A stretch of DNA of 22,105 nt from a virus: positions 1 to 22,105 of IMG/VR virus record IMGVR_UViG_3300002460_000183; one strand, 5' to 3'. The translations under genes were made by a program, and so were the position numbers. Under the pieces are notes generated by a model that made no database searches, was not told where the DNA came from, and was given only the letters and a program-made list of their open reading frames with translations. Below, in pieces: positions 2 through 9,339 of this stretch. Position 1 is the first letter of the stretch; each line of letters opens with the position of its first letter.

Positions 2-469
2 GACCTGCCTGTGTTCTTTCACGACTACACCAAGGGTGACCTGTTCCAAATCGACAAGATGGTCTTGGACCTTGAGCCGATGCGGTTCACACGCCACCCG
101 CTGGACATGTCGTCAGCAGGCAACTGGAATGGCCGCGTCGTGCTGGTCGGTGAAGCCTTTGCCGAGCGCAAAGACTGCGACGCGTTCTACCAATGGCCCT
201 TCGCTTCATTCAGTGGCGAAGGTTGCAGCCAATGGCTGGCTGAGAAGCTAGATCTGGCAGAAGTCGGTGAAGACGAGATCCTCTGGCTCAACTCAGACCA
301 AGACCTGTCTGTGCTTCATGACCTAACTCCTGAGCGCGTCATCACGCTCGGCACTGAAGCCTACCAACAGCTGTACCGCCTGAAGATCAAGGCGGCAAGT
401 GTCCAGCATCCTCAGAGCTGGAAGCGATTCAAACATGGCCAGCGGTATCCTCTGCTGGACCTCATCTAA
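2..469 (+). CDS. Uracil-DNA glycosylase superfamily-like protein, 5'-truncated by window edge
   Basis: The reading frame is open to the left edge, so the gene probably starts upstream; a GTG at 11 is possible but has no visible ribosome site. Numbering from that GTG, the C-terminal part looks like the UDG superfamily: a VVLVGEAF segment (residues 43-50) resembling motif 1 (GExPG), PFASFSG (63-69) resembling the PFxGxxG that follows it, VITLGTEA (110-117) resembling the conserved strand-helix, and VQHPQSWKRF (131-140) in the place of the HPS motif. The Pro-Gly of motif 1 is not kept, so glycosylase activity is doubtful. The first 40 residues do not look like this fold and may be the end of another domain. 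It lies 9 bases before the thymidylate synthase homologue, which suggests a role in nucleotide or modified-base metabolism. The fold assignment is moderate; the activity is unknown. Confidence 0.55.
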   Translation, partial: DLPVFFHDYTKGDLFQIDKMVLDLEPMRFTRHPLDMSSAGNWNGRVVLVGEAFAERKDCDAFYQWPFASFSGEGCSQWLAEKLDLAEVGEDEILWLNSDQDLSVLHDLTPERVITLGTEAYQQLYRLKIKAASVQHPQSWKRFKHGQRYPLLDLI

Positions 470-478
470 GGAAGCATC

Positions 479-1261
479 ATGGACTTTTCAAGAACTTGGC
501 TCGACGCCCTCAATGACATCCTGACCAATGGTGACCCAGTGGCGCCACGCGGCAAGATGACTCGTGAGATTCCCCAACGTACCATGGTAGTCGACATGCG
601 CCGCCCGGTGCTTCGTGTACCTGACCGCAGCCTGAGCTACAAGTTCATGGCCGCCGAGGCATACTGGATCCTGTCTGGTGATGACCGCGTGGAGACCATT
701 GCTCCATACAACAGCCGCATCAAGGACTTCAGCGACGATGGTGAACGCTTCTTTGGCGCCTACGGCCCCAAGATCAAAGCTCAGTTGCCCTACATCATCG
801 ACAAGCTGTTGGCCGACGAGGACAGCCGTCAAGCTGGCCTGACCATCTGGCGTGAGTGCCCACCAAACACCAAGGACGTGCCTTGCACCGTGGCGATCTT
901 CTTCAGCATCCGCAGCGGCAAGGTGAACGCCCACGTGTTCATGCGATCAAGCGACGTCTGGCTTGGTGTGCCGTATGACGTCTTCAACTTCAGCATGCTG
1001 GCTCATCTGGTCTGCGGCTTGTTGAATGAACACCGTCCGACTGCCGACGCAGTGAAACCTGGTCGCCTCTTTTTGACGGCAGCCTCAAGCCACCTGTACG
1101 AGACCAACTGGGCAGATGCTAAGTTGTGCCTGGCCAGCGAGGTCCTTGAGCAACCTGAGACAGACATCCTGCTTTGGAACGACGCGGCACACTTGATGAA
1201 GGTCTTGGCCGCCTTGCGCGAGACCAAGGCTGGTGACGACCTTCGCTGGTGGGAGAACTAA
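479..1261 (+). CDS. Thymidylate synthase-family enzyme, possible dCMP (hydroxy)methylase
   Basis: A 260-residue pyrimidine C5-methyltransferase-family protein. Visible landmarks are E60 (E. coli TS Glu58), DEDSRQ (113-118, phosphate-binding Arg region, second Arg replaced by Gln), the nucleophile C136 in VPCT, MRSSDVWLG (155-163) and SHLY (204-207). The residue matching E. coli Asn177, which reads the uracil ring, is D167 in VPYDVFNF. In this family Asp at that place is the mark of dCMP-specific enzymes: T4 dCMP hydroxymethylase has it, and TS Asn-to-Asp mutants act on dCMP. The protein is about the usual length, but the end is divergent and lacks the TS C-terminal PVAI-type tail. AAGGA precedes the ATG. 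It is followed directly by a dCMP deaminase. The family is certain. Substrate (dCMP against dUMP) and product (methyl or hydroxymethyl) are inferred. Confidence 0.85.
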   Translation: MDFSRTWLDALNDILTNGDPVAPRGKMTREIPQRTMVVDMRRPVLRVPDRSLSYKFMAAEAYWILSGDDRVETIAPYNSRIKDFSDDGERFFGAYGPKIKAQLPYIIDKLLADEDSRQAGLTIWRECPPNTKDVPCTVAIFFSIRSGKVNAHVFMRSSDVWLGVPYDVFNFSMLAHLVCGLLNEHRPTADAVKPGRLFLTAASSHLYETNWADAKLCLASEVLEQPETDILLWNDAAHLMKVLAALRETKAGDDLRWWEN

Positions 1262-1262
1262 G

Positions 1263-1757
1263 ATGAGACTCAGCCGCGACGAATGGGCCCTCAAGCTGGC
1301 CTTGCTGACCGCTCAGAGAACAACTTGCTGCCGCCGCGCCGTGGGTTGTGTCTTGCTGAATGCCCGTGGCCATGTACTCTCAACCGGGTACAACGGCGTC
1401 GCGGCTGGGCTTCCTCACTGTAATCACATGGAGGTTGTCACTGATGACGATGGCCACAACACCTATGTGGTTGAGGTCTTTCCTCATGCTTGCTCAGGAG
1501 CCAAGGCGCCAAGCGGCACGAACCTTGATGGCTGTCAGGCGATCCACGCCGAGCAGAATGCCTTGCTCCAGTGCCGAGACATGTATGCAATCCACACAGC
1601 CTACGTGACGGCCAGCCCATGCATGACCTGCTGCAAGCTGTTGCTGAACACGAGTTGCCAGCGGATTGTCTACGTGGAGGAGTATCCTCATTCGGCAGCC
1701 AAAGACTTGTGGACTGGTGCCGGAAGGACCTGGGAGCAACTTCTTGTGGAACTTTGA
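1263..1757 (+). CDS. Deoxycytidylate (dCMP) deaminase
   Basis: A zinc-dependent cytidine/deoxycytidylate deaminase-fold protein of 164 residues that should convert dCMP to dUMP in the cytoplasm. The catalytic motif is complete: H95-A-E97 (zinc ligand and proton-shuttling Glu) and P119-C120-M-T-C123 (two Cys ligands). RRAVGCVLLNARGHVLSTGYNG (within 24-45) matches the family's substrate-loop strand, and C22/C23, C53 and H55 could form the extra structural zinc site known in T4-type enzymes. The ATG at 1263 is chosen over an in-frame start 30 bases upstream because GGGAG lies 7 bases before it and it sits one base after the upstream stop, implying coupled translation with the TS homologue. Together they form a pyrimidine cassette. 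Some dCMP deaminases also accept 5-substituted dCMP, which matters given the neighbour's Asp substitution. Confidence 0.93.
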   Translation: MRLSRDEWALKLALLTAQRTTCCRRAVGCVLLNARGHVLSTGYNGVAAGLPHCNHMEVVTDDDGHNTYVVEVFPHACSGAKAPSGTNLDGCQAIHAEQNALLQCRDMYAIHTAYVTASPCMTCCKLLLNTSCQRIVYVEEYPHSAAKDLWTGAGRTWEQLLVEL

Positions 1758-7831: not shown

Positions 7832-8476
7832 TTAGAACACCTTTAGAGCTTTGAGCGTGGCAACATTGCCGATGGTCCCGCCGATGTTTCCCCACATCTG
7901 GGCTTGAGCCTGACCTTGAGCCAGAGCTGCACCGGCGGCCGCCTGTCCTTGTTGTGTCAATGCATTGCCAATGTTGGCGCCAGTTTGCTGGGCGGCAGCT
8001 GCCTGGCCTGCGGCCGATGCTTGGCCCAAGCCTGAGATGGTACCAAGCTTACTGAACTGCGACTCAATCAACTGGCTTAAAAGCTGTGGGCGAAACTGAG
8101 CAAGAGTAGCCTGCACGTTGCCGCCACGAAGTCCGCCAGTTGCTGACGCGTTTTGCAAGATGGCGTTCTCACCTTGCTGCATCATTGATTGAAACTGAGG
8201 CGATGATTCGATGCCGGCAATTGCTTGTTGCTGGGCTGCCGGTCCTGCAAGGCCAAGTAGACCTTGTTGGCCACCGATGGCCTGCTCACCAGCTCCTACG
8301 TAAGGAGCCAGCAACTTTTGAACGGCGTCGAACTGACGCCGCTGCTCCTCAATTGATGCTTGGCTTGCTGCAGTCTGGGCACCAGCAGCTGATTCTGCAG
8401 CACTAGACTGCGCGTTGCTGGACATCACGCCAGTGATGACTGATCCGGCCACGACAGCCGTTGCGATTCCGCTCAT
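7832..8476 (-). CDS. DNA transfer/ejection protein (P22 gp7-like position)
   Basis: 214 residues, strongly Ala/Gln/Gly-rich. It begins with a hydrophobic helix (VVAGSVITGVMSS, about 8-20), continues with EEQRRQFDAVQKLLAPYVGAG (about 43-63), and has a central GENAILQNASATGGLRGGN segment (about 101-119) that is characteristic of small phage DNA-transfer proteins, then ends in low-complexity QGQAAAGAALAQGQAQAQ. P22 gp7 is an ejection protein of similar size and composition. The ATG overlaps the stop of the cupin-SET gene (ATGA), with an AAGGAG ribosome site inside that gene. Confidence 0.75.
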   Translation of the reverse strand: MSGIATAVVAGSVITGVMSSNAQSSAAESAAGAQTAASQASIEEQRRQFDAVQKLLAPYVGAGEQAIGGQQGLLGLAGPAAQQQAIAGIESSPQFQSMMQQGENAILQNASATGGLRGGNVQATLAQFRPQLLSQLIESQFSKLGTISGLGQASAAGQAAAAQQTGANIGNALTQQGQAAAGAALAQGQAQAQMWGNIGGTIGNVATLKALKVF

Positions 8477-9339
8477 TGGGATTCTCCTTCAATTAGATTG
8501 ACGCCCGAGAGGGCGAGGGCTTGGCGGTAGTCAACTGTCACCTCCTCACCTTGATTGCCACCGGCGCATCCAGCAATGCGCTTCAAGGCTACAAGCCAGA
8601 TGTCACCACTTTCGTCCTTGACAAACTTAGCGTTGGGGTTCTTAGCGTGGTTGGTGTAGCGACCTGCTGGTGTGCGCATGCCATCGATGCGCGCTGGTGC
8701 GATGACCTCACCTTGCTCAACTGAAGAGCTGAGGAAAACACCTTTGCCCTCAATGGCCGAGTCACGCACGGTGAACTTAGGTGCAAAACCACTTGGCATC
8801 TTGATTTGGTCATGCGGATTCTCAGACTGAGCGCGGACTGCAGCAGGCGTGAAACCTGCAAGGCGCACAACAAGTTCAAAGTCTTCACGGTCTTCACGGC
8901 GGTGATAGGTCTCAAGTTGCTTAGCAACCTCAGCGTGCGCTTGCCACGTGGCGCTCTTGTCGAGGAACATGGCCTCAAGCTTATCGATGTCGCGCTCGTC
9001 AGTGGAGTAGACATTCTGCCAGATGCAGGTCTCAAGCACGTAGCCAAGTTTGCGGCCAGGCTTGCCAACAAAGATCATGGGTGCTCGCAGCACTTTGGTC
9101 TGACCATCGTCACCTACCATGGCAACTGCACCAGTCAACATGATGTTGAGGTGCTCAAACCGCTGGGCGTGGCCGATGGCGAGAGTGCCAGCCGGCAGAG
9201 TGACTTCGCGGATGTAGATACCCGGGCCGAAGTGGTGGACAACTGGGCACTCGACTTGAGGCAGGTCCAAAAGGTGTGATTCAACCTGCTCGATTTTAGC
9301 AGGGTCCACAATACTGTGGGATTTGGCTTCAGCCAGCAT
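8473..9339 (-). CDS. Cupin-SET domain fusion protein
   Basis: 288 residues in two recognisable domains. Residues about 32-120 form a cupin: IREVTLPAGT, GHAQRFEHLNIMLTG (H57 and H63 as possible metal ligands), then VGKPGRKLGY and a WQNVY strand. A helical linker (about 120-175) leads to a SET lysine-methyltransferase-like domain (about 188-272): EGKGVF (197-202, the GxG motif), GRYTNHAKNPNAKF (226-239, matching the RxxNHxxxPN motif that binds S-adenosylmethionine), and GEEVTVDY (264-271, the GEELxxDY motif with the catalytic Tyr). All three SET signatures are intact. The zinc-binding pre/post-SET cysteines are absent, as in many short SET proteins. It sits between a small structural protein and the ejection genes, so a virion or assembly protein is a plausible substrate. 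A good AAGGAGA site precedes the ATG. Confidence 0.8.
   Translation of the reverse strand: MLAEAKSHSIVDPAKIEQVESHLLDLPQVECPVVHHFGPGIYIREVTLPAGTLAIGHAQRFEHLNIMLTGAVAMVGDDGQTKVLRAPMIFVGKPGRKLGYVLETCIWQNVYSTDERDIDKLEAMFLDKSATWQAHAEVAKQLETYHRREDREDFELVVRLAGFTPAAVRAQSENPHDQIKMPSGFAPKFTVRDSAIEGKGVFLSSSVEQGEVIAPARIDGMRTPAGRYTNHAKNPNAKFVKDESGDIWLVALKRIAGCAGGNQGEEVTVDYRQALALSGVNLIEGESQ

Follow-up and report, generated by a model that had tools for sequence, protein, structure and literature searches.

A thymidylate synthase-like gene and its neighbours

The window (the whole 22,105-nucleotide stretch of viral DNA analysed, nearly all of a 22,295-base contig that is itself a fragment) begins with a run of three genes, encoding a kinase-like protein, a thymidylate synthase (TS)-like protein and a dCMP deaminase, followed by lysis and structural genes on the opposite strand (Table 1). 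The TS-like gene has AAGGA directly 5' of its ATG, and the likely deaminase ATG, at 1263, lies one base after the stop of the TS-like gene. The product of the truncated kinase-like gene is 35% identical to gp29 of the Stenotrophomonas phage AXL3 (E 2e-31); full-length relatives of this gene have a P-loop N-terminus, and the full-length protein of the relative L010 belongs to PHROG 761 (thymidylate kinase). The slot before the TS-like gene varies among relatives that are >90% identical, holding a kinase-like gene in the window and L010 (9080-9991) and, in L007, L008, L011 and L013, a 131-residue domain similar to the C-terminal half of AXL1's pyrophosphohydrolase. Elsewhere in the window, a gene at 8473-9339 (minus strand) encodes a 288-residue protein whose residues 14-148 resemble short tail fibre or adhesin PHROGs and whose residues 213-271 weakly match the SET domain (PF00856, 23.5 bits versus a cut-off of 22.4).

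Table 1. Positions of genes and key codons in the window, and of the methyltransferase gene in relatives (record:positions).
Feature	Position	Strand	Remarks
Kinase-like gene, C-terminal part (AXL3 gp29 family)	2..469	+	cut by contig end
TS-superfamily gene, predicted dCMP 5-hydroxymethylase	479..1261	+	ATG start, 260 aa, PF00303
Arg117-Gln118, phosphate site	827..832	+	codons 827 and 830; Gln usual in branch
Asp133, three residues before Cys	875..877	+	equivalent of T4 Asp145; alignment, T4 role PMC6400193
Cys136 (nucleophile) and Thr137 (ThyA position 147)	884..889	+	codons from 884 and 887; alignment
RSSD, residues 156-159	codons from 944	+	window protein
Asp159 (ThyA position 169), folate orientation	953..955	+	alignment; Asn in RB69-type 5-hydroxy-dCMP synthases
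Asp167, predicted to read cytosine	977..979	+	equivalent of ThyA Asn177 and T4 gp42 Asp179; alignments
SHLY, residues 204-207		+	window protein
dCMP deaminase, HAE and PCxxC zinc motifs	1263..1757	+	PF00383 E 4.9e-19; 65% identical to AXL3 gp27
SAM methyltransferase	L010:7876-8694; AXL3 gp31, L003:17644-18468		equivalents in L007-L053

The TS-like protein belongs to the TS superfamily, as it matches PF00303 (E 1.1e-21, 77.6 bits versus a Pfam gathering score of 24.3) and has the nucleophile Cys136 and the phosphate-binding Arg156. The catalytic Cys, RSSD and SHLY signatures listed in the original prediction were all located (Table 1). Every NCBIfam thymidylate synthase cut-off was missed, the best score being 59.5 bits versus 174.55, and this shortfall together with Asp167 speaks against a true ThyA. 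The prediction had placed an Asp at the position of ThyA Asn177, and alignment with E. coli ThyA, T4 gp42 and the SP8 dUMP hydroxymethylase indeed aligns Asp167, not an Asn, with ThyA Asn177 and T4 Asp179. This Asp is conserved and no chance change, because a scan with six peptide patterns that omit the residue recovered Asp at 177 in 47/47 viral relatives; a genome scan likewise blind to position 177 gave 24/24. A second viral scan, whose pattern contains the Asp, was therefore left out of the conservation evidence.

Two other features had been thought unusual. One, the Gln of the SRQ motif, proved to be family-wide, following the first phosphate Arg in 120/129 aligned rows and also in SP8. 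The other, the C-terminus, is nearly as long as in ThyA (53 versus 55 residues beyond the SHLY Tyr), but it does differ, since structural alignments of the predicted model to E. coli TS stop at residue 253/264, so that the protein, like T4 gp42, lacks the closing tail of ThyA. Long C-terminal extensions (~100-128 residues after the SHLY Tyr) occur in Asp177 homologues from Micromonosporaceae/actinobacterial and Comamonadaceae genomes (L141-L158).

A residue code shared with dCMP hydroxymethylases

In the MetaGPA study, positions 177 and 147 best separated the TS homologues of cytosine-modified from those of unmodified contigs, the modified set carrying Asp at 177 (PMC8670742). T4 gp42 uses Asp145, which lies three residues ahead of the catalytic Cys (position C-3), to activate water, and its D145N mutant makes no 5-hydroxymethyl-dCMP (PMC6400193). 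We sorted reference enzymes by known DNA or gene neighbours and compared them at four diagnostic positions (C-3/147/169/177, ThyA numbering). The window protein reads D/T/D/D, as do T4 gp42, Xp15 and the enzymes of glucosyltransferase-linked relatives (see below), and differs from dUMP hydroxymethylases (D/N/D/N), ThyA (L/H/D/N), the 5-hydroxy-dCMP synthases of RB69 type (E/T/N/D, a pattern derived here from two sequences only, RB69 and Thanatos) and relatives of the 5-methylcytosine phage Xp12 (N/P/D/D, derived here from AXL1 and PaMx28, which represent the class in place of the Xp12 enzyme itself). Asp177/Thr147 occurs in T4 (5-hydroxymethylcytosine, 5hmC) and in Xp15, which has a carbamoyltransferase neighbour, and Asn177/Asn147 in SP8 (5hmdU) and in Sonora and Montesquieu, whose neighbours include an alpha-glutamyl/putrescinyl thymine pyrophosphorylase.

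Asp at 177, Asp at C-3 and the lack of a TS C-terminal tail, which mark the T4 gp42 type of dCMP hydroxymethylase, were thus all found in the window protein, and Thr147 and Asp169 extend the likeness. Overall sequence similarity to gp42 is nonetheless low, Gln replaces the second phosphate Arg, and the counterpart of T4 Ser94 is Gly93 (in Gly93-Ala94-Tyr95), so that no Ser or Thr lies two residues before the Tyr. Ser94 is a proposed signature of hydroxymethylation only; T4 S94A retains ~25% activity (PMC6400193), and SP8 has Ala at this position. ThyA Trp80, considered as a methylase mark, was dropped, because the alignment around it is uncertain and T4 gp42 has the Trp as well.

The predicted structure of the window protein (pLDDT 94.6) has the CMP 5-hydroxymethylase MilA of the mildiomycin pathway as its best solved match (Z 27 versus 24.6 for the best thymidylate synthase); T4 gp42 was not among the 50 matches listed, which has no bearing either way. 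In the tree, a 31-row clade unites the window protein with the glucosyltransferase-linked relatives (support 87/90), and AXL1 and PaMx28 fall beside ThyA, where long branches make placement unsure.

Gene content of the relatives

A separate thymidylate synthase gene, ThyX, occurs in 10/34 records, among them AXL3, PW916 and each of the five closest long relatives, whose TS-like enzymes are 90-95% identical; in those phages, therefore, the TS-like gene need not supply dTMP. Hydroxymethylases give back tetrahydrofolate and do not need a dihydrofolate reductase (DHFR). We found no DHFR in the 33 records of the window's clade, although the AXL1 DHFR used as a control scored just under the cut-off, and a divergent DHFR could therefore be missed. 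A pyrophosphohydrolase (PF01503) is grouped with the TS and deaminase genes in relatives, and co-occurrence of these three was often specific to modified contigs in MetaGPA (PMC8670742).

In five relatives (L043, L044, L045, L049 and L050; three without near-copies, 42-44% identical, one clade), the TS-like gene is directly followed by a beta-glucosyltransferase of T4 type (PF09198; E 6e-24 for L043), whose start overlaps the final codons of the gene before it. T4-type beta-glucosyltransferases act on 5hmC. A carbamoyltransferase (PF16861) was not found in 37 records, and 5-carbamoyloxymethylcytosine is therefore not supported for the window's clade.

Upstream of the TS-like gene, 43 of 50 loci carry a SAM methyltransferase of the AXL3 gp31 family. 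The seven others are the five with the beta-glucosyltransferase and two on contigs that stop short of this position, and the two genes never occur together in the 50 loci, an exclusion that may stem from a single evolutionary event. Among 50,697 phage records the methyltransferase was detected in five (four phages), all with the TS-like gene in the same cassette; the Pelagibacter phage HTVC200P has a TS-like gene without an annotated methyltransferase nearby, and the link therefore runs one way. The methyltransferase model matches only generic class I methyltransferase folds. It is conceivable, if doubtful, that the enzyme decorates the hydroxymethyl group (for example to 5-methoxymethylcytosine), taking the role of the beta-glucosyltransferase in the sister branch. 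In the window phage the gene would lie outside the contig, and we infer its presence there from the relatives.

AXL3 itself offers a published phenotype. Its gp28, annotated as thymidylate synthase, is 56% identical to the window protein; of 37 restriction enzymes, its DNA was cut by only two, whose sites consist of A and T alone, and its authors took gp28 for the dTMP synthase, left the modification unknown and noted the ThyX gp50 as a puzzle (PMC7504290). If gp28 is a dCMP hydroxymethylase, gp50 is simply the source of dTMP. AXL3 is another type of phage, but the cassette of kinase, pyrophosphohydrolase, methyltransferase and deaminase genes recurs in AXL3 and the relatives.

A predicted route to 5-hydroxymethylcytosine

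Judged from its sequence, the window protein is very probably a folate-dependent dCMP 5-hydroxymethylase, and so adds one more to a kind of enzyme already known; the gene neighbours in relatives firm up the case beyond a single residue. The original prediction had argued from Asp177 to a dCMP substrate and to modified cytosine, and this step gains support from the residue code, the tree and the ThyX of close relatives, and further from the glucosyltransferase-linked relatives and the restriction resistance of AXL3 DNA. Points against a dCMP hydroxymethylase are the replacement of T4 Ser94 by Gly93 and the preference of MilA, the nearest solved enzyme, for CMP; the 42-44% identity and single clade of the glucosyltransferase-linked relatives, and the chance of having missed a divergent DHFR, weaken the case as well.

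As to the product, the prediction had left the choice between 5-hydroxymethyl- and 5-methyl-dCMP, of which the former is much likelier because the window protein has the Asp at C-3, its clade yielded no DHFR, and the Xp12 relatives form a separate Asn/Pro branch. A dCMP 5-methylase like that of Xp12 would transfer a folate hydride to yield 5-methyl-dCMP, and thus DNA with 5-methylcytosine. In its favour, Asp177 is common to the window and Xp12-relative enzymes (AXL1 and PaMx28 also share the dCMP deaminase neighbour), the DNA of Xp12 and its relative AXL1 resists restriction (PMC9206674), and true TS carrying an N-to-D mutation produces 5-methyl-dCMP (cited in PMC8670742). AXL1 and PaMx28, however, combine Asn at C-3 and Pro at 147 with a DHFR gene in the vicinity, and they cluster with ThyA apart from the window protein, which has at C-3 the Asp that drives hydroxylation in T4 and lacks the ThyA tail. 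As this Xp12-type pattern was not found (DHFR being searched for in the relatives, since the window contig is a fragment), we consider a 5-methylase unlikely. The RB69-type phages (Mosigvirus) show another outcome on the same fold, making 5-hydroxy-dCMP (PMC13390438) with an FAD-dependent synthase, the 5-hydroxycytosine serving as base for later glycosylation. The RB69 enzyme (PDB 9iqc, a dCMP- and FAD-containing monooxygenase of the TS fold; 211 residues align with the model at an rmsd of 1.9) shares Asp177 and Thr147 with the window protein, but RB69 and Thanatos, the two sequences on which the contrast is drawn, carry Glu (C-3), Asn (169) and Thr-Phe-Tyr in place of the Asp, Asp and Gly-Ala-Tyr of the window protein, and the glucosyltransferase linked to the clade is of the T4 type, acting on 5hmC. 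Such a synthase is thus very unlikely here.

An ordinary thymidylate synthase or a dUMP hydroxymethylase, fed by the adjoining dCMP deaminase, would fit the family name and the deaminase neighbour, and the homologues of AXL3 and AXL1 were interpreted as thymidylate synthases in the papers on those phages (PMC7504290, PMC9206674). The SPO1/SP8-type dUMP hydroxymethylases also resemble the window protein in their APRG start, the Gln after the phosphate Arg and the Asp at C-3. They modify uracil, however, and SP8, whose DNA contains 5hmdU, and the thymine-hypermodifying phages have Asn at both 177 and 147, whereas every member of the window's family has Asp177 and Thr147; with the NCBIfam TS cut-offs all missed and ThyX separate in close relatives, a dUMP-directed enzyme is highly improbable. 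MilA, the best match by sequence as well as by fold, likewise has Asp177, Thr147 and the Asp at C-3, and would suggest a CMP 5-hydroxymethylase acting on ribonucleotides. Its ribose-favouring Ala176 and Lys133 are, however, Ser157 and Arg117 in the window protein, and MilA came to prefer dCMP once Ser and Arg were restored (PMC5175136). Because both ribose-favouring residues are absent, dCMP and not CMP is the expected substrate; the gene moreover sits in a phage, among DNA-precursor genes, and a CMP enzyme has next to no chance of being correct.

For the preferred dCMP 5-hydroxymethylase, we infer the substrate, product, pathway and modified DNA from the enzyme family, its residues, the gene order and the presence or absence of other genes in relatives. 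Cys136 would attack C6 of dCMP, with Asp167 pairing with and protonating the cytosine ring; methylene-tetrahydrofolate would donate its methylene group to C5, and water activated by Asp133 would convert it to a hydroxymethyl group; the products would be 5-hydroxymethyl-dCMP and tetrahydrofolate. Complete relatives would obtain their dCMP from dCTP through a PRA-PH-type pyrophosphohydrolase and use a kinase to lift 5-hydroxymethyl-dCMP towards the triphosphate for the phage polymerase, with dTMP coming from the dCMP deaminase and ThyX. As a result, the phage genome would contain 5-hydroxymethylcytosine, perhaps with further decoration, making the DNA restriction-proof. The T4 system likewise has a dCMP deaminase and a dCTP-pyrophosphatase-type partner, and some relatives of the window phage share its beta-glucosyltransferase, but the window phage is small, its close relatives use ThyX for dTMP and its own branch is without the glucosyltransferase.

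On this reading, widespread 'thymidylate synthases' of small phages would be re-labelled probable dCMP hydroxymethylases, and a likely cause can be offered for the restriction-resistant DNA of AXL3. The short residue code separates five products of one enzyme family, and the methyltransferase, if our reading of it is true, may produce a new cytosine derivative.
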